Origin: Litoreibacter sp.
Lineage (GTDB): Bacteria; Pseudomonadota; Alphaproteobacteria; Rhodobacterales; Rhodobacteraceae
Direction: 5' to 3'
NCBI GenBank assembly: GCA_026710325.1
Contig: JAPORH010000163.1
Span: 1-33,634, forward strand
DNA: 33,634 bases
Position numbers and translations under genes: made by a program. The first letter of the stretch is position 1, and every line of letters begins with the position of its first letter. This document shows, in pieces, positions 5,349 to 17,583 of the stretch. The notes below the pieces were generated by a model. It was not told where the DNA came from and did no database searches. It saw only the letters and a program-made list of their open reading frames with translations.

Positions 5349-6008
5349 CTATCCTTGTACAAGCGAGCGGTATTTCGCGGGGTTCCATCCACACGCATAT
5401 CCGTCACCGTCTGGGTCTAGCCGCAACTTATCACGCTCCGGCCCCCCTGCTTTCAAAAAGGCATCCTGCGCAAGATCAGTCGACGGGTATCGCGCGCAGT
5501 TCTCAGCCGTTTTCCCGCGCCCAAAAGGCGATCTGCGATAGGTTTTCTGTCCGACCGGATGGCTGACTTGCAGCGCAAATTCTATAGGTGTCGGCGCTCC
5601 GCCGCCCGGCCGCGACGGAACGTTCGTTGGCGCGACGACTTTGTATTGTCCTTGTTGCTGCTGACGTCGCGCCGCATCTGAAGCGATCGTTTGGCGCTGC
5701 GACACTGCAGCAAAATCCTGCTCATCGGAAATACCCGGATTGCTTTGTGGCGACGACGGCGCAGCCAGGCCTCCCTGCCCTATTGCAGCGACAGCTGCTG
5801 CGGCCAACCGTTCGTTTTCTGTGGTAGCTGGGGCGGCTTGCCCCTGAGACGCCGGTGCATTTATCCCTGCGAGCTCCAAGTCGCGTGCTTGCCTTTGCTC
5901 GATATACTGGTCGTAGCTACCGAAACCAACGCCCGGCGCCGTATCATCCGGTATAGGCGCAGAGCATGCTGCCAAACCACAGCAAATTAGAAAAGAAATT
6001 GCGCGCAT
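5349..6008 (-). CDS. Lipoprotein with C-terminal excalibur calcium-binding domain
   Basis: A 219-residue predicted lipoprotein. The start at 6008 gives MRAISFLICCGLAACSA, a short signal peptide with lipobox LAAC (lipidated Cys15), and GAGGG seven bases upstream supports it. The middle is Ala/Gln-rich and low in complexity, probably disordered. The last 50 residues form an excalibur domain: an N-terminal Cys in AENCARYPS and the calcium-loop motif LDPDGDGYACGW. Excalibur domains resemble EF-hand loops and occur on extracellular or wall-associated proteins. It sits between gatA and the amidase gene with coupled translation into the latter, hinting at an envelope role. The exact function is unknown. 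Confidence 0.8.
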   Translation of the reverse strand: MRAISFLICCGLAACSAPIPDDTAPGVGFGSYDQYIEQRQARDLELAGINAPASQGQAAPATTENERLAAAAVAAIGQGGLAAPSSPQSNPGISDEQDFAAVSQRQTIASDAARRQQQQGQYKVVAPTNVPSRPGGGAPTPIEFALQVSHPVGQKTYRRSPFGRGKTAENCARYPSTDLAQDAFLKAGGPERDKLRLDPDGDGYACGWNPAKYRSLVQG

Positions 6009-6060
6009 AGCGCTGCCCTCGCTCATGATCAGCGCTCTTTCAGGCGCCCTTAGCCACTCC

Positions 6061-7542
6061 TTACCACCATTTGTTAGGTTTTTCCACAAAACCAGCGGCG
6101 CGCTCCAGGACAAAGGCGTGATTAAGCAAATCTGCTTCCTCCCATGGGCGGCCAATCAGTTGCAGACCGAGAGGAAGCCCTTGTTTGTCCAGCCCAGCCG
6201 GCACGGCGATCCCAGGAAGCCCCGCAAGGTTCACCGTGACGGTAAACACATCGTTAAGATACATCTGAACCGGATCGGCATCTGCCATTTCGCCCAATCC
6301 AAAAGCGGCAGACGGGGTGGCAGGTGTCAGGATCGCATCCACGCCTTGCGCGAACACATCCTCAAAGTCCTTTTTGATCAGCGTTCGCACTTTGCGAGCG
6401 CGGTTGTAGTAGGCGTCATAGAACCCCGCGCTCAAGACATAGGTCCCGATCATGACGCGCCGCTGCACCTCAGGGCCGAACCCTTCGGCCCGGGTCTTTT
6501 CGTACATCTCCGTAATGCCGTCGCCTTGGCTCAAGCCTGCGCGATGGCCAAAACGCATGCCATCATAGCGGGCGAGGTTGGAAGAGGCCTCGGCCGGTGC
6601 CACGACGTAGTAAGCCGGGAGCGCGTATTTTGTGTGCGGCAAAGAGATATCGACAATCTCGGCACCGGCATCCTTCATCATTTCGATCCCTTTGGTCCAA
6701 AGGTCCTCGATCTCTTGCGGCATGCCGTCGAGGCGGTATTCCTTGGGGATACCTATCTTTTTGCCGCGGATATCACCGGTCAAAGCGGCCTCGAAATTGG
6801 GGACTGCCAATTCGGCAGACGTGGAATCCTTGGGATCATGCCCAGACATGGCCTCGAGCATGATCGCCGCATCGCGCACTGACTTGGTCATCGGCCCCGC
6901 TTGATCAAGCGAGGAGGCAAAGGCGACGATCCCCCAGCGAGAGCAGCGCCCATAGGTGGGCTTCAACCCGGTGATACCAGTGAAGGCGGCAGGTTGGCGG
7001 ATCGACCCGCCTGTATCTGTTCCGGTCGCGGCCAAACATAGGTCAGCCGCCACGGCGGAAGAGGAGCCGCCAGAAGAGCCGCCCGGCGTTAAGTTTCGGT
7101 CATCAATTTTCCATGGGTTCACGACATCGCCGTAGCATGACGTCTCGTTTGAAGACCCCATAGCGAATTGATCCATGTTGAGCTTGCCCAACATGACCGC
7201 ACCCGCATCCCAAAGCTGCCCAGTGATGGTGCTTTCATATTCAGGTTTGAACCCTTTCAGAATGTCCGAGGCGGCTTGGCTCGCGACGCCTTTGGTGCAA
7301 AACAAATCCTTTATGCCCAAGGGTACGCCACACATATCAGGCGCATCGCCCGCTTTGATCCGCGCATCCGCGGCCTCGGCTTGCGACAAAGCGATCTCAG
7401 GCGTGTTGTGAACAAAGGCATTTAGCGCGGAGGCGCCTTCGATTTCTGCCAGACAGTCTTTGGTTATCTCGACGGCGGTAAAATCGCCCGAGCGCATCCC
7501 GTCCCGCGCCTCGGCAATCGTCAGTTTGGACAGCTCAGCCAT
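6061..7542 (-). CDS. gatA: Asp-tRNA(Asn)/Glu-tRNA(Gln) amidotransferase subunit A
   Basis: Glutaminase subunit of GatCAB, which converts mischarged Glu-tRNA(Gln) or Asp-tRNA(Asn) to the amide form by hydrolysing glutamine. The 493 residues match the usual length. The amidase-signature catalytic triad is visible: Lys78 in [10 protein letters not shown], Ser156 in GGSSGGSS, and Ser180 in [10 protein letters not shown]. The ATG at 7542 overlaps the gatC stop by one base (TAATG). gatB is not in this window, so the complex is encoded at split loci, as is common in alphaproteobacteria. Confidence 0.98.
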
Positions 7543-7829
7543 TATTCAACCACCTTTGGAACCGCAAAAAACCCTTCGCGCGCATCGGGCGCGTTCGCCA
7601 GAACCGCCCCCTGCTGGTTGCCGTCAGTGACAACGTCTTCGCGCCGCTTCAGTCGTTGTGGTGTAACCGATGTCATCGGCTCCACGCCGTCCACATCCAC
7701 CTCATTGAGTTGCTCCATAAAGTCCAAAATACCGTTCAATTCGTCAGCCAGCTTGGGCAGGTCTTCCTCGGGCACAGCGATGCGAGCAAGCTTTGCCACG
7801 CGGCCAGCGGTTTTAGTGTCAATGGACAT
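7542..7829 (-). CDS. gatC: Asp-tRNA(Asn)/Glu-tRNA(Gln) amidotransferase subunit C
   Basis: A 95-residue GatC that wraps around GatA and stabilises the GatCAB complex. Family features: N-terminal [19 protein letters not shown], the [22 protein letters not shown] core, and the tail REDVVTDG...[18 protein letters not shown]. The start at 7829 has GGAG seven bases upstream; a longer frame reaching 7889 lacks family similarity. It is the first gene of the leftward gatC-gatA-lipoprotein-amidase group and is divergent from the metallo-hydrolase at 7975. Confidence 0.97.
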
Positions 7830-8664: not shown

Positions 8665-8946
8665 TCAGAAATGGATCAGGTCCCTGTAGGTGACGTGCGC
8701 CAAATGGTAGTACGGATCACGTCTCAAAACAGGGTCAAGCCCGACATCTTTCCGTAAATTCTCGGGGACGTTATCGATATGCAGCTGGCCGCCAATATGG
8801 GGGCCAGCGGTGCTATCAGGGGGCCTGCTGCGCTTGAGGATCCTACCGCCTATCGCCAGGACGACTGGCAGAAGACCGTGGCTTTTGACAAGTGCATCGA
8901 TTGCCTCGGACGGGCTTGGCCCACGCTTCAATGGAAGTGCATTCAT
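8665..8946 (-). CDS. Small hypothetical protein
   Basis: A 93-residue protein I cannot assign. No signal peptide is seen; there is a short hydrophobic stretch (LLPVVLAIGGRI). The C-terminal part, ENLRKDVGLDPVLRRDPYYHLA, faintly recalls the LRxDIGL signature of DUF1127/YjiS-like proteins. An AGG about eight bases upstream of the ATG at 8946 is a modest binding site. It is convergent with the hydrolase gene, with no bases between the stops. Its leader region would be the hairpin-rich gap upstream. I judge it more likely real than not. Confidence 0.5.
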   Translation of the reverse strand: MNALPLKRGPSPSEAIDALVKSHGLLPVVLAIGGRILKRSRPPDSTAGPHIGGQLHIDNVPENLRKDVGLDPVLRRDPYYHLAHVTYRDLIHF

Positions 8947-9268
8947 TTTTGATACCTATCCAGCGGACTTCCCCACTGGTCCTTTTACTTTGATGTGAAA
9001 AAACCTTTGGCGGAACAACGGGCACAAAAATGCCGGGGTCGTTTTGGCTTAGGGTTTTGGTTGAAGGATCAGCCGTCTTTGGCTGAAGGGCGACGCGTTA
9101 GGCTTGAAAGCCCATATACGGGGAGGCGATTTGGCCTCCCGCGTGCACACGGGTTTGGCGCGATTGAACGAATAATGCGGTCATGTAACGCCTCCCTTGG
9201 TTTGTGCTGCGTCTGATTGGTTCATACAGCCAAAGCTGATTCTGTCAAAGGCCTTTGCCCTACGCGCG
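8947..9268. other. Intergenic region with a cluster of hairpins
   Basis: No convincing gene lies here. Several stem-loops follow one another: TCAGCC-GTCTTT-GGCTGA at 9069-9086, GGCT-TGAA-AGCC at 9101-9112, and GGGAGGC-GATTTG-GCCTCCC at 9121-9140; a weaker GGCA...TGCC stem lies near 9022-9035. None is followed by a T-run on either strand, so they are not simple terminators. On the minus strand they lie between tadA and the small hypothetical gene and could be a structured leader, a tadA 3' UTR or a small RNA. Confidence 0.35.
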
Positions 9269-9724
9269 CTAGTCTGCGCGTTTTGCCGCGAAAAAACTTT
9301 TCAACAAAGCCGCGCAGTCGTCTTCTGCAATACCGTCATACACCTCGGGCTTATGATGGGTTTGTGCCTGCTGAAAGACACGTGCCCCTTGAAGCACCCC
9401 CCCCGATTTTGGATCGCTCGCGCCAAAGTAAAGCCGCGCGATCCGCGCCTGCGAAATCAGGCTTGCACACATCGAACAAGGCTCAAGCGTCACGTATAAA
9501 GAGCAGCCGGTAAGACGTTCAGAATTCAGATTTCTACAAGCCTCACGAATGGCGAGCACTTCGGCATGGGCAGACGGATCACGATCCTCCATCACGCGAT
9601 TGCCGGCACGCGCCAGTACTGCGCCATCCGCGCCAATGATGACCGCGCCGACCGGCACCTCCCCGCGCTTGCCCGCCAAACGCGCTTCTTCCAGCGCGAG
9701 TTCCATATAGGAGGTAAATTCCAT
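9269..9724 (-). CDS. tadA: tRNA-specific adenosine deaminase
   Basis: A zinc deaminase that converts A34 to inosine in the anticodon of tRNA-Arg(ACG). The 151 residues are the usual length. The zinc site is intact: H53-A-E55 in SAHAEVLAIR and P-C83-x-x-C86 in TLEPCSMC. MEFTSYMELALEEARLAGKRGEVPVGAV matches the family N-terminus. The ATG at 9724 is preferred over one at 9706 because AGGGA lies just upstream. It is divergent from the RluB-type gene with about 73 bp between the starts. Confidence 0.96.
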   Translation of the reverse strand: MEFTSYMELALEEARLAGKRGEVPVGAVIIGADGAVLARAGNRVMEDRDPSAHAEVLAIREACRNLNSERLTGCSLYVTLEPCSMCASLISQARIARLYFGASDPKSGGVLQGARVFQQAQTHHKPEVYDGIAEDDCAALLKSFFAAKRAD

Positions 9725-9797
9725 ATACTTCCCTAAACATATCAATAGCTTGCAGACAAGCCTTTCCCTCTTCGTGCGCCCACGCTACACCCACCAC

Positions 9798-10607
9798 ATG
9801 ACAGAGAACACGCCCCAAGGTGACCGTATTGCTAAGGTCCTCGCCCGCGCTGGCATCGCGTCGCGCCGCGGCGCAGAGGCATTGATCGAGGCCGGCCGCA
9901 TCACAGTGAACGGGAAAACAATCACCAGCCCGGCGCTCAACGTCACCGCTAAAGACAAGATCACCTTTGATGGCAAACTTGTCGGCGCACCGGATGAGCC
10001 ACGCCTCTGGCTATACCACAAACCGACCGGTCTTGTGACAACGGAGCGGGACGAGAAAGGCCGCGCCACCGTTTTTGCCGCCCTGCCCGACACGATGCCG
10101 CGCGTGGTAAGTGTTGGCAGACTCGACATAAATTCCGAAGGTTTACTGCTGCTGACCAATGATGGCGGCATCAAGCGCCGCCTTGAGCTGCCCTCAACAG
10201 GGTGGCTCAGAAAATACCGTGTCCGCGTCAACGGTGCGCCTGAGGACGCCACGTTCGAGCCACTTCGCAAAGGGATCACGGCTGACGGCGAACGGTTCCA
10301 GCCCATGGATGTGACCCTAGACCGGCAACAAGGCGCAAACGCTTGGCTCACCGTCGGTTTGCGGGAGGGAAAAAACCGCGAAATCCGCCGCGCTATGGGG
10401 GAGATCGGCCTTAAGGTGAATCGGCTGATCCGGGTCAGCTACGGCCCGTTTCGCCTCAACGACCTCAAACCCGGCGAGGTTGAGGAAGTGAAAGTGCGCG
10501 TGCTACGCGACCAGCTTGGTATTGCGCCGGAAGGTTCAAAACCGCGCCCAAAGAAACGCCCCACCCAAAGACGACGAAACGCGCCACCCGCGAAGAGCAA
10601 ACGCTAA
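9798..10607 (+). CDS. rluB: 23S rRNA pseudouridine synthase, RluB/RsuA family
   Basis: A 269-residue enzyme that isomerises a uridine in rRNA. It has an S4 RNA-binding domain at about 10-60 (IAKVLARAGIASRRGAEALIEAGRITVNG), then the synthase domain with catalytic Asp110 in GRLDINSEGLLLLTNDG, and LREGKNREIRRAM further on. The C-terminal tail after about 245 is Lys/Arg/Pro-rich and probably disordered, binding RNA. RluB (U2605 in 23S) is the best fit; RsuA, RluE and RluF are paralogues, but the S4 domain and length favour RluB. The start at 9798 (MTENTPQGDR) is the first ATG of the frame. Confidence 0.88.
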   Translation: MTENTPQGDRIAKVLARAGIASRRGAEALIEAGRITVNGKTITSPALNVTAKDKITFDGKLVGAPDEPRLWLYHKPTGLVTTERDEKGRATVFAALPDTMPRVVSVGRLDINSEGLLLLTNDGGIKRRLELPSTGWLRKYRVRVNGAPEDATFEPLRKGITADGERFQPMDVTLDRQQGANAWLTVGLREGKNREIRRAMGEIGLKVNRLIRVSYGPFRLNDLKPGEVEEVKVRVLRDQLGIAPEGSKPRPKKRPTQRRRNAPPAKSKR

Positions 10608-10691
10608 GCTAAACCTCTGCTCGGTCGAACTTCTGGTAAGACGCGCCGCGACCCCTTATATATCAAAGACGGGTGTAGATCAGGGGCTTGG

Positions 10692-10772
10692 ATGTCTTTC
10701 GCAGCGATACAGAAAATTGCCTATGGCATGCTCATTCTGCTCGTCTTGATGGCTGGGCTGGGGTTGGTCTGA
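10692..10772 (+). CDS. 26-residue single-span membrane microprotein
   Basis: A short frame reading MSFAAIQKIAYGMLILL followed by VLMAGLGLV and stop. Almost the whole peptide after residue 7 is hydrophobic, so it should insert as one transmembrane helix. AGGGG lies five bases upstream of the ATG. The stop codon overlaps the xpaC start as TGATG at 10770-10774, so the two are translationally coupled. This arrangement argues for a real gene rather than chance. I know of no named family. It heads the XpaC-TelA gene set; a leader peptide role is the alternative. Confidence 0.65.
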   Translation: MSFAAIQKIAYGMLILLVLMAGLGLV

Positions 10773-11638
10773 TGGCGCAACGCTATGGGGGCGAATTCAG
10801 CCCTGATGCAAAACCTAAGTCGAATTCCACTTTGCGGCGTGCAAAACCTCAAAAGGGTCGCGCGCGGGCATCGATTTTGGGGGTTGCTGCTCTTCCAATT
10901 CTGGTAACGGCCTTCAGTGGTGGCCCAACCAAGCTGGCACTTCATATTGCGGCCTTCGCGCTCATTGCGCTTGAGGCGTGGATGACGAAAGAGGGCCTGG
11001 AGGCGGAAGAAGCTTATGAGGCGCGGCTCATCTCCCGCCGCCCGGCCATCCCGCGCAAACTATTTGGTGCCATTTTGACAGGGCTCGGCATCGGGGCCGT
11101 GACGTTCGACACCAGCTTGATTAACGGAGTGCTTTACGGGCTCATCGCATTTGGTCTGCACTTGGCGGCCTTTGGGCTCGACCCCACAAAGAACAAGGTC
11201 GCAGAGGGCGTAGACGACTTCCAAAACGCCCGCGTCGCAAAAGCCGTGGATGAGGGCGAAAAGCACCTCAAAAACATGCGCGAGTTGGTTCTTGAGACGC
11301 GCGATCGTGCCTTGATCGCCCGTGTAGATGTTTTCCAGTCGACCGCGCGTGAGATGTTTCGCACCGTTGAGAATGACCCGCGCGACCTCAGCTCCTCACG
11401 CCGCTATCTGGGCCTTTATCTTCAGGGCGCGCGCGATGCGACGAAGCAGTATGTCGACCTGACCAGGCGGGTGGAAAACAGCGAAGGCAAGGCGTCTTAT
11501 CTTGCATTGCTGGATGATCTGGAGGCAAATTTCACCGCGAAGACAGAGACGCTTTTGACCAATAACAAAGACGCATTGACGATTGAGATTGACGTGTTGC
11601 GGGAACGGCTGCAGCGCGAAGGGATTGAGCCCCGCTAG
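10772..11638 (+). CDS. xpaC: XpaC family protein (5-bromo-4-chloroindolyl phosphate hydrolysis family)
   Basis: A 288-residue membrane protein of the XpaC family (PF10112). A basic N-terminus is followed by hydrophobic segments at about 33-50 and 54-70, then at about 97-112 and 116-135, and a long charged helical cytoplasmic part. The C-terminal half (VDEGEKHLKNMRELVLETRD... LGLYLQGARDATKQYVDLTRR) matches the part of the family usually found beside TelA. The family name comes from an effect on X-phosphate hydrolysis; no catalytic motif is evident and the real function is unknown. The start overlaps the microprotein stop. telA follows after nine bases. In Bacillus subtilis xpaC is likewise next to a TelA gene (yaaN). 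Confidence 0.85.
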   Translation: MAQRYGGEFSPDAKPKSNSTLRRAKPQKGRARASILGVAALPILVTAFSGGPTKLALHIAAFALIALEAWMTKEGLEAEEAYEARLISRRPAIPRKLFGAILTGLGIGAVTFDTSLINGVLYGLIAFGLHLAAFGLDPTKNKVAEGVDDFQNARVAKAVDEGEKHLKNMRELVLETRDRALIARVDVFQSTAREMFRTVENDPRDLSSSRRYLGLYLQGARDATKQYVDLTRRVENSEGKASYLALLDDLEANFTAKTETLLTNNKDALTIEIDVLRERLQREGIEPR

Positions 11639-11647
11639 GAGGAAAAG

Positions 11648-12835
11648 ATGACCGAAACAGTTCGCGAGAAGGCGCAAGCCGCATTGGCCCAAGTGGAGGA
11701 GGTCAACGCCGTGATCCTGCCTGAGCCCAGCACCGAGCTTGTTCCGCTCGAAAAAGCTGAAGCACCCGTGGCCGCAGAAATCCGCAAGCGCATGGATGAG
11801 GTCGACATCACCGACACCAACTCGATCGTGTCTTTTGGCTCGAAGGCGCAAGCCGGCTTGCAGGAAATCAGCCAATCCATGTTGGCTGACGTCAAAAACA
11901 AAGACGTTGGCCCGGCTGGAAATTCGTTGCGCGACATCGTCTCCACCATCCGCGGGTTTTCGGTGTCCGAGTTGAACCCGAACCGCAAGCTGTCTTGGTG
12001 GGAGAAGCTGATTGGCAAAGCGAAACCCGCTGCGATGTTCATGGCGAAATATGAAGACGTACAAAGCCAGATCGACAAGATCACCGGCGATCTCGAAAGC
12101 CATGAGATGACCCTGCTAAAGGACATCAAATCGCTCGATATTCTTTATGCAAGGACCTTGGACTTCTATGAAGAACTCGCTCTCTATATCACCGCTGGTG
12201 AAGAAAAGGTCGTCGAGCTCGACATGAACGACATCCCCGAGCTTGAAGCCGAGCTTGAAGAAACCCCGGAAGAGAAAAAGGTCATGAAAGCGCAGGAACT
12301 CCGCGATCTACGCGCCGCGCGTGATGACCTGGAGCGTCGCGTGCACGACATGAAACTGACCCGTCAGGTCACAATGCAATCCCTGCCCTCGATCCGACTG
12401 GTGCAGGAGAATGACAAATCGCTCGTCACCAAGATCAACTCCACCCTCGTCAACACCGTACCGTTGTGGGAGACGCAGCTGGCGCAAGCCCTGACCATCC
12501 AGCGCTCCGCTGAGGCAGCAGAGGCCGTGCGCGATGCCAATGATCTGACCAATGAGTTGCTCAAGGCGAACGCAGAAAACCTACGCATGGCCAATAAATC
12601 GATCCGTGAAGAGATGGAACGCGGCGTGTTTGATATCGAGGCCGTGCAAAAGGCCAATGACGATCTGGTCGCGACCATCAATGAAAGCCTTGAGATCGCT
12701 GATGAAGGCAAGCGCAAACGTGCTGAAGCCGAAGAGAAGCTGGGTCAGATGGAAGCAGAGCTGCGTGACACGCTCGCATCCGCCTCCGCACGCGGGACCG
12801 CGCAAGGTCATGCAATCGGGGAAAGCGCTAGCTGA
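11648..12835 (+). CDS. telA: TelA/KlaA family toxic anion resistance protein
   Basis: A 395-residue, mostly helical soluble protein of the TelA family (PF05816), named from plasmid tellurite resistance. Characteristic segments include DITDTNSIVSFGSKAQAGLQEIS, LSWWEKLIGKA, KYEDVQSQIDKITGDLE and LPSIRLVQENDKSLVTKIN. The C-terminal region from about 285 is a long predicted coiled coil. No membrane span is seen; partnership with the membrane protein XpaC is the usual context. An excellent ribosome binding site (GGAGG) lies in the nine-base gap after xpaC. The role is inferred as membrane or metal-stress tolerance; resistance to tellurite itself cannot be claimed. Confidence 0.92.
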   Translation: MTETVREKAQAALAQVEEVNAVILPEPSTELVPLEKAEAPVAAEIRKRMDEVDITDTNSIVSFGSKAQAGLQEISQSMLADVKNKDVGPAGNSLRDIVSTIRGFSVSELNPNRKLSWWEKLIGKAKPAAMFMAKYEDVQSQIDKITGDLESHEMTLLKDIKSLDILYARTLDFYEELALYITAGEEKVVELDMNDIPELEAELEETPEEKKVMKAQELRDLRAARDDLERRVHDMKLTRQVTMQSLPSIRLVQENDKSLVTKINSTLVNTVPLWETQLAQALTIQRSAEAAEAVRDANDLTNELLKANAENLRMANKSIREEMERGVFDIEAVQKANDDLVATINESLEIADEGKRKRAEAEEKLGQMEAELRDTLASASARGTAQGHAIGESAS

Positions 12836-13778
12836 TTTGTACTGTCGTGGGCAATATCTCAGCCTCGCAATAGCTGGGCTTCTTGCGCTTGGGGGCTGCA
12901 TCGCCGCCCCTACCAGCCCGCGCCCTGAACAACGCGCGCCGGTTGTTCAGCCCAAACCAATCGAACCCTCCGCCGAGAACAAAGCCCTGGCGTCCTACTA
13001 TGCCTCTGTTCAGCAAAACCTGCTCACACAAGGGCTTTTGCGCATAGATGGTGGTGGGCCAGATACTCCTTTTTCAAAACGCGACATCGTCAATAATTTC
13101 ATCAAGATCGGCGTGTTTAGCGAATTTGATTTTGTCGATGGCACGTTTCAAGGGCGCGGCGGAGAAAGCGTTGTGCGTCGCTACAGCGAACCGGTGCGCC
13201 TTATGCTCGACTTTGCGCCAGCCATAACTGAGGCCAATCGCTCCGAGATCACTTCAACGACCCAGCAATATCTCGGTCGTCTTGCAAGCGTCACAAACCA
13301 TCCAATCCGCCTTGATCAAAAGGACCCGAACTTTTTAGTCGCGATCCTCGATATCGACAGCATGAAAACATACGTGCCAAAGCTACAGGCCTTCGCACCT
13401 GGCCTGGAGGCATCTTTTGCGAAACGGATGCTGGCTTTGGATCGCCCGGACCATTGCGTCGTCTACACATTCAACGACCCGGCGACGCCTGCTAAGATTT
13501 ACAAATCTGTAGCACTTATCAGAGCCGAGCACCCCAAGTTGTTGCGCGAGAAGTGCCTGCATGAGGAAATCGCGCAAGGGATGGGCCTGGTCAATGACAG
13601 CCCCCGCGCACGCCCGTCCATCTTTAACGACGATGACGAATTTGCCTATCTAACGAGCCATGACGAGCTTTTACTCAAGATACTCTATGACCCGCGCCTG
13701 CCCCTTGGCGCGACCCCGCAACAAGCCCGCCCAGTGGTGGAGGTCATCGCCTCCGAGCTGCTGGGCGGTGAGAGCTGA
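12810..13778 (+). CDS. DUF2927 domain lipoprotein
   Basis: A 322-residue predicted lipoprotein. The signal segment ends in LALGGC (lipidated Cys30), and a Pro-rich linker follows. The DUF2927 domain runs from about 85 to 300, from FSKRDIVNNFIKIGVFSEFDF to SHDELLLKILYDPRL. It contains HEEIAQGMGL at 251-260, which looks like a zincin HExxHxxGL helix with the second His replaced by Ala. Cys216 and Cys249 could form a disulfide in the periplasm. The ATG at 12810 lies inside the end of telA (26-bp overlap); a TTG at 12837 just after the telA stop is an alternative. Function unknown. Confidence 0.85.
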   Translation: MQSGKALADLYCRGQYLSLAIAGLLALGGCIAAPTSPRPEQRAPVVQPKPIEPSAENKALASYYASVQQNLLTQGLLRIDGGGPDTPFSKRDIVNNFIKIGVFSEFDFVDGTFQGRGGESVVRRYSEPVRLMLDFAPAITEANRSEITSTTQQYLGRLASVTNHPIRLDQKDPNFLVAILDIDSMKTYVPKLQAFAPGLEASFAKRMLALDRPDHCVVYTFNDPATPAKIYKSVALIRAEHPKLLREKCLHEEIAQGMGLVNDSPRARPSIFNDDDEFAYLTSHDELLLKILYDPRLPLGATPQQARPVVEVIASELLGGES

Positions 13779-13803
13779 CCCCAAAACCTGAGACGAGGAC
13801 CCT

Positions 13804-14934
13804 ATGGGCATTCTAGATTTTCTGACCGGCGAATTTATCGACGTCATCCATTGGACCGACGACACACGCGACACGATGGTGTGGCGTTTCGAGCGGGAGG
13901 GGCATGCGATCAAATACGGTGCCAAACTGACCGTGCGCGAGGGTCAGGCGGCCGTGTTCATCCATGAAGGCCAGCTGGCCGATGTGTTCACGCCCGGGCT
14001 CTATATGCTCGAAACAAACAACATGCCGATCCTGACCACGCTGAACCATTGGGACCACATGTTCCAAAGCCCGTTCAAATCGGAGATCTATTTCGTCAAC
14101 ACGACCCGGTTCAACGACCTGAAATGGGGCACCAAAAACCCGATCATGCTGCGTGACCCGGAGTTTGGACCATTGCGCTTGCGCGCTTTCGGGACTTATT
14201 CGACGCGCGTTTCGGACCCCGCCAAGTTCCTGACTGAGATCGTCGGCACGGATGGCGAGTTCACTATGGACGAGATCAGCTACCAGATCCGCAACATCAT
14301 CGTGCAGGAATTCTCCCGCGTGATCGCGCAATCCGGCATCCCCGCCTTGGACATGGCGGCAAACACGGGCGATCTAGGAAAGCTTATCGCCTCCTCCATT
14401 TCGCCGATCGTTGCCGAATACGGGTTAACGATCCCAGAATTCTACATTGAAAACATATCACTACCGCCCGCTGTTGAAGAAGCCTTGGACAAAAGATCCT
14501 CTATGGGAATGCTGGGCGATCTTGGGAAATACACCCAGTTCTCTGCCGCCGAAGCTATGACTGCCGCGGCGAACAATCCGTCTGGCGGTGGAAGCGGTAT
14601 GGGTGCGGGGCTTGGCGCGGGAATGGGCATGGCGATGGCCACTCAGATGGCCAACCAAATGCAAGGCGGCGGGCAAGGGCCATGGGGCGCGAGCCCAGCT
14701 GCCGCGCCACCGCCACCGCCGCCAGTCGAACATATCTGGCACATTGCCGAGAATGGCCAAACCAAGGGACCCTTCTCGAAAGCTGCTATGGGGCAAATGG
14801 CCAGCGATGGTTCGTTGACCCGTGAGACCCACGTCTGGACCGCAGGACAAGACGGATGGAAGAAAGCGGGAGAAGTGATCGAGCTGGCCCAGCTCTTTAC
14901 CATTTTGCCACCACCACCACCGCCGCCAAGTTGA
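13804..14934 (+). CDS. SPFH domain protein with C-terminal GYF_2 domain
   Basis: A 376-residue protein of the group often called virion core protein-like, related to Bacillus YdjI. The SPFH (band 7) part covers about 20-230 (EGQAAVFIHEGQLADVFTPGLYMLETNN near its start, then VQEFSRVIAQSGI, ending in ISLPPAVEEALDKR). A Gly/Met-rich linker (255-290) leads to poly-proline (302-307). A GYF_2 domain follows at about 311-365 (IWHIAENGQTKGPFSKAAM... GWKKAGEV), and a second poly-proline tail ends the protein. No clear transmembrane helix is visible, so it probably acts as a peripheral membrane scaffold. GAGG five bases before the ATG supports the start. GYF domains bind proline-rich peptides, so its own tails may mediate self-assembly (inference). 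Confidence 0.9.
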   Translation: MGILDFLTGEFIDVIHWTDDTRDTMVWRFEREGHAIKYGAKLTVREGQAAVFIHEGQLADVFTPGLYMLETNNMPILTTLNHWDHMFQSPFKSEIYFVNTTRFNDLKWGTKNPIMLRDPEFGPLRLRAFGTYSTRVSDPAKFLTEIVGTDGEFTMDEISYQIRNIIVQEFSRVIAQSGIPALDMAANTGDLGKLIASSISPIVAEYGLTIPEFYIENISLPPAVEEALDKRSSMGMLGDLGKYTQFSAAEAMTAAANNPSGGGSGMGAGLGAGMGMAMATQMANQMQGGGQGPWGASPAAAPPPPPPVEHIWHIAENGQTKGPFSKAAMGQMASDGSLTRETHVWTAGQDGWKKAGEVIELAQLFTILPPPPPPPS

Positions 14935-14992
14935 CCGGTTTGTGAGCGCCGAACCACTGGCCAGTGACTGCGAAAACCTTACTTCGAACGGT

Positions 14993-15568
14993 ATGAACCA
15001 ACCCGCAGCATCATTGGCAACACAGTTTTATCAGCGCCTGCCCGCCCGCCGGACGGCGCTGAAATGGCTGCATTGGGGGATCATTCCCTTCTTCATCTGG
15101 TTCATATTTGCCGATCCGGATGCTTTGCGCCGCGCCGGAAAATGGGTGTTCCGCTTCCATTCTGTCATGGGTCTGATTTTTGTTACTTTGGCCCTGATTT
15201 GGAGCGCGATGTATTTGCGCCAAGGCCTCGCCTCTCGCCCAGGGCCGAAGCTGCCAGGCTGGGGGCGGACCTTTCATAAGGTCTTGCATCACAGCCTGAT
15301 CTGGGGCCTGTTCCTCGTGGCCTTTGGCGGGTTTCTTCTTGGACTCACATCATCCGTGCTGCTTTGGGCGGGAGGCATCTTGCCGATCGCGCCGCCCATG
15401 GGCTGGCCGCGCGCCAATGATCTGGTGGGCATTTTCCATACCTATCAATTCTACGCGCTCGCCGCGCTTGTAGGTATTCACGCCTGCTTCCATATCTGGC
15501 GCCATATCCGCTTACGTGATAACGCTTTGCGCATCATGGCCCCTAAGGTTTTGCACAGGTTTCTTTAA
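14993..15568 (+). CDS. Cytochrome b561-like membrane protein
   Basis: A 191-residue protein with four hydrophobic helices, like cytochrome b561 (Ni-hydrogenase b-type cytochrome) proteins that carry two haems and shuttle electrons in the inner membrane. Candidate haem ligands are His27 (KWLHWG), His56 (RFHSVMG), His99/100 (KVLHHSLIW), His149 (IFHTYQF) and His163 (GIHACFH). The ATG at 14993 is preferred because the sequence after it matches the family start region, although no strong binding site is visible; a GTG at 14942 would add 17 residues. It sits between the SPFH and zinc-ribbon genes, with three bases to the latter. Its redox partner is unknown. Confidence 0.8.
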   Translation: MNQPAASLATQFYQRLPARRTALKWLHWGIIPFFIWFIFADPDALRRAGKWVFRFHSVMGLIFVTLALIWSAMYLRQGLASRPGPKLPGWGRTFHKVLHHSLIWGLFLVAFGGFLLGLTSSVLLWAGGILPIAPPMGWPRANDLVGIFHTYQFYALAALVGIHACFHIWRHIRLRDNALRIMAPKVLHRFL

Positions 15569-15571
15569 GAC

Positions 15572-16666
15572 ATGAACGCCTCCGCACCCGCGCAGGAATA
15601 CCGCTTTCCTTGCGACAATTGCGGCTCCGATTTGGAGTTCGACCCGGCCTCTGGCCTATTGAAATGCGGCCATTGCGGCAACACCGAAACTGTCGTGGAG
15701 GGGCGCGCGAGCTCTATCGAAGAGCTTGATTTCGACGCAGCGCTGCGCGGACGCCTGGCAGAAGCGGAGATGGAAGAAACTCGCGTCACGCAGTGCCCAA
15801 ACTGCGCGGCGCAGGTGCAGTTCGACGCAGATATCCACGCCACCGAATGCCCCTTCTGCGCCACCCCTGTTGTCGCCGATACCGGAACGCATCGCCATAT
15901 CAAGCCACGCGGCACACTGCCCTTTGCGCTGGATGAAAGACAGGCGCGCAAGGCTATGACCGAGTGGCTTGGAAGCCTTTGGTTCGCTCCGAACGGTTTG
16001 AAGGATTACGCTCGCAAGGGCCGCAAACTTGACGGCATTTATGTTCCTTACTGGACCTACGACGCGGCAACCCGCACCCGCTATACCGGGCAGCGCGGCA
16101 TTGACTATCAAGAGCGTCGTACGGTCATGCGCGACGGTAAGAAAAAGACAATCATGGTCACGAAGACGCGTTGGAACAGCGTGTCCGGCCGGGTGGCGCG
16201 TGATTTTGACGATGTGTTGGTGCTCGGATCGACCTCTCTGCCCAAGAAATATACCGATGCGCTGCAACCATGGGACCTGACCCATTTGCGCCCCTACAGC
16301 CCGGAATATCTGGCAGGATTCCGGGCTGAAGCCTACACGGTCGAGCTGGACCAAGGCTTTACTGAGGCGCGTCAGATCATGGATCGTCGCATCACCCGCG
16401 ACATCCGCTTCGATATTGGTGGCGACCGACAACGGATCCATAGCGCGGACACGCAGGTCTCAGATGTGACCTTCAAACATGTGCTCTTGCCCGTTTGGAT
16501 GGCCGCCTATAAATACCGGGGCCGAACGTTCCGGTTCGTGGTCAATGGCCAAACCGGCGCGGTCCGTGGGGAAAGGCCCTTCTCCGCCATCAAAATTGCA
16601 ATTGCGGTCGTGCTGGGGCTGATCCTGGCTGCGGCCATCGGATATGGAATGGCCTTACAACAATGA
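15572..16666 (+). CDS. Double zinc-ribbon protein with C-terminal membrane anchor (YdjG-like)
   Basis: A 364-residue protein often annotated as PriA-like or TFIIB-type zinc finger protein. Two zinc ribbons stand at the N-terminus: Cys14/17 with Cys32/35, and Cys75/78 with Cys93/96. The middle domain contains YVPYWTYDAATRTRYTGQRG, a Trp/Tyr-rich beta segment typical of this group. One transmembrane helix at about 340-360 anchors the C-terminus, so the ribbons face the cytoplasm if the anchor is a simple tail. A PriA helicase role is unlikely since no helicase motif exists. The layout resembles Bacillus YdjG, which works with the SPFH protein YdjI. It overlaps the next gene by ATGA. Confidence 0.85.
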   Translation: MNASAPAQEYRFPCDNCGSDLEFDPASGLLKCGHCGNTETVVEGRASSIEELDFDAALRGRLAEAEMEETRVTQCPNCAAQVQFDADIHATECPFCATPVVADTGTHRHIKPRGTLPFALDERQARKAMTEWLGSLWFAPNGLKDYARKGRKLDGIYVPYWTYDAATRTRYTGQRGIDYQERRTVMRDGKKKTIMVTKTRWNSVSGRVARDFDDVLVLGSTSLPKKYTDALQPWDLTHLRPYSPEYLAGFRAEAYTVELDQGFTEARQIMDRRITRDIRFDIGGDRQRIHSADTQVSDVTFKHVLLPVWMAAYKYRGRTFRFVVNGQTGAVRGERPFSAIKIAIAVVLGLILAAAIGYGMALQQ

Positions 16667-17583
16667 TCTTATGCTGCGGCGAAGCCCTCATCGACATGCT
16701 CCCACGCGAAACCGAAGCCGGGGAACAAGCCTTCGCGCCATATGCTGGCGGCGCGGTATTTAACACAGCGATTGCATTGGGCCGGCTCGAGGCGAAACCA
16801 GGTTTCTTTTGCGGGCTGTCTCAGGATCTTTTTGGGCAATTGCTTGTGGATACGCTTGCGGCCTCCGACGTGTCGACTGACCTGGCCCCGCGTCCCGACC
16901 TGCCGACAACCCTCGCCTTCGTTAAACTTGAAGATGGTCATGCAACCTATTCATTTTACGATGAAAATACGGCCTTGAAATCGCTAAGAAAAGAGGCGCT
17001 GCCACCGCTCACAGATGGGGTCAAAGCCGTGTTCTTCGGCGGCATCTCTCTGGCGGAAGGCCCAAGCGCAGATGCCTTTGCCGCCCTCATGGCACGGGAG
17101 GCCGAGGCCCGTGTCACCATGATTGACCCCAATATTCGCCCCGGCTTCATCAAAGACCGTGAGGCCTATGTGGCACGCATCCTCGCCATGATGGCGCAGT
17201 CCGACATCGTAAAACTGAGTGACGAGGACTTGGCATGGCTCGAGGGCGATGGTGAGATCGCAACACTGGCGCAAGCGATTATCGCGCGCGGCACCAAGCT
17301 GGTTCTGATCACAGAAGGCTCCAAGGGGGCAACCGGTTACACGGCGACGCAAAGGGTCTTTGTTTCGTCCCAAAAGGTCGACGTCGTCGACACTGTCGGC
17401 GCGGGCGATACGTTCAATGCTGGCGTTCTGAGTGCTTTGCAAAAGGCAGGGTTGCTGACCAAACAGGCCATTGCCGAGTTGGACGACGCAGCAATCCATG
17501 ATGCGCTAGAGATGGGCGCGCGTTGCGCCGCCGTTACCGTTTCGCGCGCCGGGGCAAACCCGCCCAAACTGTCAGAATTATGA
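16663..17583 (+). CDS. PfkB family carbohydrate kinase (probable fructokinase)
   Basis: A 306-residue ribokinase-fold sugar kinase. Signatures: N-terminal [16 protein letters not shown], the GG of [16 protein letters not shown], and the C-terminal PfkB motif [14 protein letters not shown] with catalytic Asp249. Closest in feel to bacterial fructokinases of the PfkB family; the sugar cannot be fixed from sequence. It overlaps the zinc-ribbon gene by four bases and dtd by four bases, so it is co-transcribed with unrelated neighbours. Confidence 0.9.

Follow-up and report, generated by a model that had tools for sequence, protein, structure and literature searches.

XpaC and TelA are joined to an SPFH-GYF protein and a double zinc ribbon in a conserved proteobacterial gene unit

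In Firmicutes, xpaC and telA are adjacent genes that belong to envelope-stress regulons, as in Bacillus subtilis (xpaC-yaaN), Lactococcus lactis (llmg_1115-1116) and Listeria (lmo1966-1967). The B. subtilis pair and the pspA-ydjG-ydjH-ydjI operon are both sigma-W units (PMC3498285), and YdjI, an SPFH protein, recruits PspA to the membrane together with YdjG/H (PMC8581546). Overproduction of membrane proteins in L. lactis raises xpaC-telA 10.3-fold and 3.4-fold, and growth is partly impaired when the pair is deleted (PMC3139573). In Listeria, a telA mutant is 4 times more sensitive to nisin and 2 times more to tellurite (cited in PMC12791056), xpaC is up 7-fold in an Enterococcus faecium liaR mutant (PMC10269926), and a mutated XpaC-like gene has been reported with its role left open (PMC7864038). 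TelA is not mentioned in the available text of two papers on the Psp system (PMC11237479, PMC9239133), nor are XpaC, Alphaproteobacteria or Rhodobacter in that of the second. A literature search for XpaC, TelA and SPFH together found no description, most subscription journals lying outside its coverage. The window analyzed here, a stretch of 33,634 nucleotides from Litoreibacter sp. (Rhodobacteraceae; assembly GCA_026710325.1, contig JAPORH010000163.1), carries both modules in one row of seven genes. Whereas B. subtilis xpaC-yaaN has neither an SPFH nor a zinc-ribbon gene beside it, the window's unit has both.

A sequence-only reading of the window had proposed that the two modules are joined, and had taken scattering of the genes in close relatives as evidence to the contrary. 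The genes are not scattered in most loci; they form one conserved unit that also occurs in other families and in another class. The zinc-ribbon alignment was scanned against genome_contigs (84,980 species), and the best 80 of at least 579 encoding stretches were used. Fifteen of them were set aside as uninformative because the gene lies less than 4.8 kb from the locus start. The order xpaC-telA-(DUF2927)-spfh-zr, zr being the zinc-ribbon gene, is kept in 60 of the 65 informative loci, 54 with the DUF2927 lipoprotein gene and six without it; the loci are related, mostly from Rhodobacteraceae, so the counts are not independent. The other five are one telA-spfh-zr (with telA in two pieces), two spfh-zr and two zr alone. 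The DUF2927-free six come from Competibacteraceae (L149), which are Gammaproteobacteria, Methylococcaceae (L162), Geminicoccaceae (L158), an uncultured alphaproteobacterium (L147) and Rhodobacterales-type records (L178, L181).

Loci were also selected by telA. Within the window's family, TelA is present in 260 of 296 genomes, a sample with one genome per genus for nearly all, and the TelA of the unit is the sole match found in the window's genome. Thirty-nine telA loci were selected manually among the top 150 places listed by score and are thus not a random sample. By tblastn, xpaC adjoins telA in all 39; DUF2927 was found in 36, SPFH in 34, the zinc ribbon in 32 and b561 in 6. Two loci without SPFH (L037, L039) and one without the zinc ribbon (L035) stop at contig ends, and L038 lacks the lipoprotein. 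The flanking genes, which from their sequences we take to be rsuA and tadA upstream and dtd downstream, and a pfkB-type kinase gene downstream (by Pfam), occur anywhere in the stretch in 32, 32, 22 and 16 of the 39, respectively. In L038, L041 and L049, rsuA/tadA lie about 6-8 kb away and are reversed, and xpaC-telA-spfh-zr is still intact. These loci, together with 11 outside loci in which the neighbors were not found (below), rule out neighborhood inertia as the cause of the conserved order. The gene order of the unit is kept far beyond chance.

Elsewhere in the class XpaC is rare: of 289 genomes, 20 have it, and 15 of these lie outside the family. The order xpaC-telA-spfh-zr recurs in 6 of these 15, from four families (L097, L098, L099, L104, L105, L107); in ten further loci from eight non-family alphaproteobacterial genomes, SPFH and the zinc ribbon were not found. 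A phylum sample of 397 genomes gave XpaC in 50, five outside the class, of which three were examined: the four-gene core is present in L125, a GYF protein whose Band_7 similarity is below the cut-off follows xpaC-telA in L137, and L136 has an XpaC fragment only. G481:C38 and the sub-cut-off matches G687 and G702 were left out. The 11 stretches that hold the four genes and lie outside the window's group (L097, L098, L099, L104, L105, L107, L125, L147, L149, L158, L162) yielded no match to DUF2927, rsuA, tadA, dtd or pfkB. Thus the core is four genes, xpaC-telA-spfh-zr, recurring in other alphaproteobacterial families and in Gammaproteobacteria, and the joint unit is supported because its order is kept across families and a second class where these neighbors were not found. 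The reading's added parts, a lipoprotein and a redox protein, are present in the window; neither belongs to the core, since DUF2927 is missing from these 11 loci and b561 from most loci, as described below.

Other arrangements were seen as well. In L149 an alpha/beta hydrolase (Abhydrolase_3) and further open reading frames (ORFs) stand between spfh and zr (5998-7803). A Pontiellaceae contig (Kiritimatiellota) that starts 195 bases before spfh carries spfh-zr. XpaC and TelA lie 1.2-1.6 kb apart in L126-L130 (e.g. L126 9026-12310), and in L126, the one that was scanned, a lipoprotein with SBP_bac_11 and VWA matches occupies the interval. Such clusters share with the window's unit XpaC, TelA and an envelope lipoprotein gene between them; they differ in that L126 has a different lipoprotein, telA is upstream of xpaC, and SPFH and the zinc ribbon were not found in the stretch. 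They are possibly a parallel envelope system.

All seven same-strand frames of the reading are present in the window with overlaps or short gaps (Table 1). Five have Pfam matches; the zinc-ribbon protein is below the cut-offs, but an alignment of 10 sequences from several families shows both of its CxxC...CxxC ribbons to be invariant. The microprotein stop and the xpaC start share the bases of a TGATG, telA runs 26 nucleotides into the lipoprotein gene, and the remaining gaps are 3-58 nucleotides if ATG starts are assumed. The xpaC-telA pair is present as such, the PF10112 gene immediately preceding the PF05816 gene. XpaC appears by reading to have a hydrophobic N-terminal half and a soluble C-terminal half. 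A ydjGHI-like pairing is likewise present, a PF13421 SPFH gene with that of a double zinc-ribbon transmembrane (TM) protein, separated in the window by b561; the likeness to YdjG is one of layout only. The B. subtilis SPFH protein, used as a control, matches PF13421 too, and as in B. subtilis these proteins would be encoded in one operon with a membrane effector. Unlike pspA-ydjGHI, the window's unit has TelA and XpaC in place of PspA, has no TPM protein (YdjH; no TPM-domain match was found among the unit proteins), and has an extra lipoprotein, microprotein and b561.

Table 1. Features of the xpaC-telA-spfh-zinc ribbon unit in the window
Feature	Position	Strand	Basis
Microprotein, 26 amino acids, single TM	10692..10772	+	read from sequence
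XpaC (PF10112, XpaC/Halogen_Hydrol)	10772..11638	+	Pfam E 4.3e-23
TelA (PF05816), long coiled-coil	11648..12835	+	Pfam E 5.9e-110
DUF2927 lipoprotein (PF11150), lipobox LGGC30	12810..13778	+	Pfam E 8.6e-49; predicted metzincin-fold domain
Degenerate metzincin motif H251-EExxQxxGxxND263	13560..13598	+	54-sequence alignment; register by eye
SPFH (Band_7_1 PF13421, 5e-99) + GYF_2 (PF14237, 2e-21), poly-proline linker and tail	13804..14934	+	Pfam
Cytochrome b561-like membrane protein (PF01292), optional insert; ATG at 14993	14942..15568	+	Pfam E 3.4e-9
Double zinc ribbon, C-terminal TM segment, YdjG-like layout	15572..16666	+	eight invariant Cys, 10 aligned sequences

The SPFH protein of the unit carries a GYF domain, in contrast to the Bacillus band-7 protein, which is described in a review as having a C-terminal zinc ribbon (PMC11237479). 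In the unit's protein, PPP occurs within the last 25 residues in 109 of 110 sequences and ahead of the GYF domain in 99 of 110. Proline-rich peptides are ligands of GYF domains, so self-assembly of the protein through its poly-proline tail and GYF domain is plausible. The b561 gene is optional and not core: a hidden Markov model match was found in 21 of 110 loci with spfh and zr, 18 of them above 60 bits. This bears on an alternative in which the unit is a platform where membrane-protein complexes, respiratory or other, are assembled or quality-controlled; SPFH would be the chaperone scaffold, the zinc ribbon an adaptor, the lipoprotein a chaperone in the periplasm and b561 a redox sensor on the quinone side. 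In 18 of the 80 named loci, the b561-like ORFs lying between spfh and zr group together, L. lactis xpaC-telA responds to membrane-protein overproduction (PMC3139573), and a pseudo-protease fold (below) would suit the binding of a substrate without cleavage. The platform is nevertheless improbable, its redox gene being optional and its substrate only postulated.

The DUF2927 lipoprotein is predicted, from a structural model, to have a metzincin fold with the three zinc histidines replaced. The degenerate motif was called before folding. Among 54 aligned sequences (the short ORFs of L198 and L200 were omitted), C30, C216, C249, E252, E253, Q256, G259, N262 and D263 are invariant, and H251 is conserved in at least 90%. 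The zinc-histidine positions of HExxHxxGxxH are E, Q and N, EExxQxxGxxN(D) being invariant in all 54; the Met of the Met-turn is absent, with an invariant F272 in a SIFND stretch instead (register by eye). The AlphaFold2 model is confident (predicted local distance difference test score, pLDDT, 91.6; predicted template-modelling score, pTM, 0.84). In a Foldseek search of the PDB, seven of the best eight matches are catalytic domains of matrix metalloproteinases or snapalysin at probability 0.99-1.00, with template-modelling scores of 0.55-0.69 (TMt) and 0.28-0.36 (TMq) and root-mean-square deviations of 4.4-8.0; the E values are no better than 7e-3, none reaching 1e-3, and unrelated matches begin at rank 12. 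In the model, the positions of the zinc helix (243-257), of the kink glycine and of the C-terminal helix are those expected of a metzincin, again with the register set by eye. A profile search against PDB sequences gave a best E of 0.25 and no metzincin, so the link rests on the model. Metzincins would thus share the predicted fold of DUF2927, which differs from them in lacking all three zinc histidines and the Met-turn Met and in being a membrane-anchored lipoprotein. By the +2 rule derived from Escherichia coli, a residue other than Asp at this position directs a lipoprotein to the outer membrane; the LGGC lipobox and the non-Asp +2 residue therefore suggest that the DUF2927 protein resides there. 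A literature search on DUF2927 found nothing, most subscription journals being outside its coverage. Tandem copies follow telA in L037 and L185 (two each) and in L039 (at least three at 8800-12503, with a fourth, partial copy at the contig end). DUF2927 also occurs in L176, titled Enemella evansiae and taken as misnamed, and in L203 and L210, titled only Alphaproteobacteria.

Upstream of xpaC, a mini-ORF ending at the xpaC start and containing a TM-like segment, defined as a 15-residue stretch without charged or strongly polar residues, was found in 94 of 110 loci. The same count gave 0/110 for telA, 1/95 for DUF2927, 1/108 for spfh, 2/119 for zr and 87/550 for shuffled upstream DNA. Split by group, the positives are 91 of 99 for the window's group and 3 of 11 for the other loci. 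Since the second figure is close to that of shuffled DNA, the microprotein is established for the window's group only. Codon positions 1, 2 and 3 differ 1168, 605 and 2060 times in 151 pairs of at least 60% protein identity, a coding signature. By these sequence criteria the microprotein, with the consensus MS...LQK.AY.LL..L..GV..G..GG., is a genuine gene adjoining xpaC in the window's group. In the annotation of one relative, Paracoccus ferrooxidans CP038202.1 (PLSDB gene table, which is incomplete), a hypothetical protein precedes telA and DUF2927, SPFH and zinc-ribbon genes follow; the small ORF is not listed. A divergent second XpaC-like gene stands directly upstream of the main xpaC in L065, L173, L176, L190 and L199.

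A motif, TTCCCCCTAGCAAG, followed about 18 bases on by a CCTAAGT-like element, is found upstream of xpaC in some relatives (e.g. L056, L065, L066) and is absent at this place in the window; TCCCCCTA occurs in 19 of 90 upstream stretches. A search of 14 genomes gave four exact matches to TTCCCCCTAGCAAG, spread over four of them and each lying about 1.2 kb upstream of telA, and two one-mismatch matches elsewhere; its reversed control has 13 matches at one mismatch or fewer. The motif looks cluster-specific because each exact match sits upstream of the unit. A shared promoter or regulon based on it was rejected, no regulon having been found in the 14 genomes and the motif being missing in the window.

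TelA of the window is 36% identical to B. subtilis YaaN. Its AlphaFold2 model (mean pLDDT 72.5, pTM 0.55) has helices at 127-205, 208-324 and 330-380, and a TelA profile found nothing better than E 0.065 among PDB sequences. No ESCRT-III/PspA fold is claimed for it: the structural matches look like coiled-coil noise, with the ESCRT-associated HD-PTP at E 0.25 and probability 0.11. PF04012 (PspA/IM30) has no match among the scanned unit proteins. The absence of PspA asserted in the reading thus holds for the cluster and fails for the genome, where PspA_IM30 is encoded on a separate contig (G000:C34:2393-2989, L141); a 229-amino-acid unidentified ORF adjoins it. In the family, PspA is above the Pfam cut-off in 11 of 61 genomes.

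By analogy with the Firmicutes systems, the unit is on balance probably a Psp-like complex for envelope surveillance and membrane maintenance, in which XpaC-TelA would be the effector in PspA's place. The SPFH-GYF protein, polymerized through its GYF domain and conserved poly-proline tail, would form a membrane scaffold with the tail-anchored zinc ribbon; XpaC, together with the microprotein, would be an integral protein that anchors TelA, and TelA would act as a peripheral coiled-coil effector steadying damaged or overcrowded membrane. The pseudo-metzincin lipoprotein might bind periplasmic peptides or misfolded chains and report to XpaC, and tellurite resistance would be a side effect of improved membrane upkeep. 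More tentatively, and with rather long odds for so detailed a scheme, this may be a PspA-independent proteobacterial machine that reaches from the cytoplasm to the periplasm or outer membrane. In it, the dead metzincin lipoprotein would sense peptides or misfolded proteins and signal through XpaC and the microprotein to TelA, the whole being organized by the SPFH-GYF/poly-proline polymer and the tail-anchored zinc ribbon.

Several observations weigh against the Psp-like reading. i) The TelA model, itself weak, gave no Foldseek match in the PDB at E of 1e-3 or better, and no PspA or ESCRT-III protein among the best 50. ii) The window's genome has its own PspA_IM30 gene, and the function proposed for the unit is carried over from data on Firmicutes. 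iii) The halves do not always travel together: in the intact loci L043, L045 and L046, xpaC-telA has neither SPFH nor a zinc ribbon nearby, spfh-zr occurs apart from xpaC-telA in L154 and L156, the zinc ribbon is missing from L065, and L151 and L193 have a lone zinc-ribbon gene. iv) Evolutionary rates divide the unit; the two groups that they form speak for the reading, the values between the groups against it. With rsuA and tadA partialled out, correlations of pairwise distances in 65 loci are 0.61 for xpaC-telA, 0.55 for xpaC-lipoprotein, 0.45 for telA-lipoprotein and 0.57 for spfh-zr; between groups they are 0.29-0.36 for {xpaC, telA} against {spfh, zr} and 0.08-0.16 for the lipoprotein gene against spfh or zr. 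For the four core genes the within-minus-cross difference is 0.25 (bootstrap 0.12-0.38). There are thus two co-varying sub-assemblies, {XpaC, TelA, DUF2927} and {SPFH, zinc ribbon}. Gene closeness does not explain them, because the lipoprotein and spfh genes adjoin yet correlate at only 0.08. As a control, rsuA reaches 0.30-0.54 with the cluster genes, and its correlation with tadA is only 0.18, which makes both weak controls; the core cross-group values are no higher than rsuA's 0.39-0.54 given tadA, so contact between the two groups is unsupported by the rate test. The single machine of the sequence-only reading therefore stands as a joint conserved unit and not as one tight complex, and its description as a membrane-stress unit joining two modules is partly supported.

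The two rate groups, the few loci with one half alone and the split operons of B. subtilis (PMC3498285) would also be expected if two separate systems, XpaC-TelA-DUF2927 and SPFH-zinc ribbon, stood side by side and the operon gave them common regulation only. This is unlikely: the four-gene order is kept across families and in Gammaproteobacteria, which co-regulation alone does not obviously explain, and even in the distant L137 a GYF protein (with weak Band_7 similarity) follows xpaC-telA.

A further point against the Psp-like reading is that R. sphaeroides telA is named among chromosomal tellurite loci in a review (PMC6955997). Together with the family name and with the distantly related klaB of IncP-type plasmids (26.7% identity), whose annotation reads tellurium resistance protein, it would fit a dedicated tellurite or oxyanion resistance operon in which TelA and XpaC protect, b561 reduces oxyanions and the rest help. 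We give such an operon little credence. Its redox gene is optional, the Firmicutes data concern mostly membrane-active agents and membrane-protein load, and TelA is near-universal in the family, for which reason housekeeping fits better than niche resistance.

A tRNA search of the window found none, and no sigma-70-like promoter was found within 10450-16900 (shuffled DNA averaged 2.7). PADLOC models run against the six unit proteins other than the microprotein gave one weak partial match, PDC-S64 at 15.5 bits, to the zinc ribbon only; an anti-phage defense system was rejected on this outcome.

The names in use for TelA and XpaC, "toxic anion" and dye-phosphate protein, come with no mechanism. 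Their conserved order in two proteobacterial classes ties them to SPFH and zinc-ribbon partners like those of the Bacillus PspA system, and a conserved microprotein and a predicted pseudo-metzincin fold for DUF2927 are added as new objects. With PspA in 11 of 61 family genomes and TelA in 260 of 296, the question raised is whether TelA may do PspA's job.

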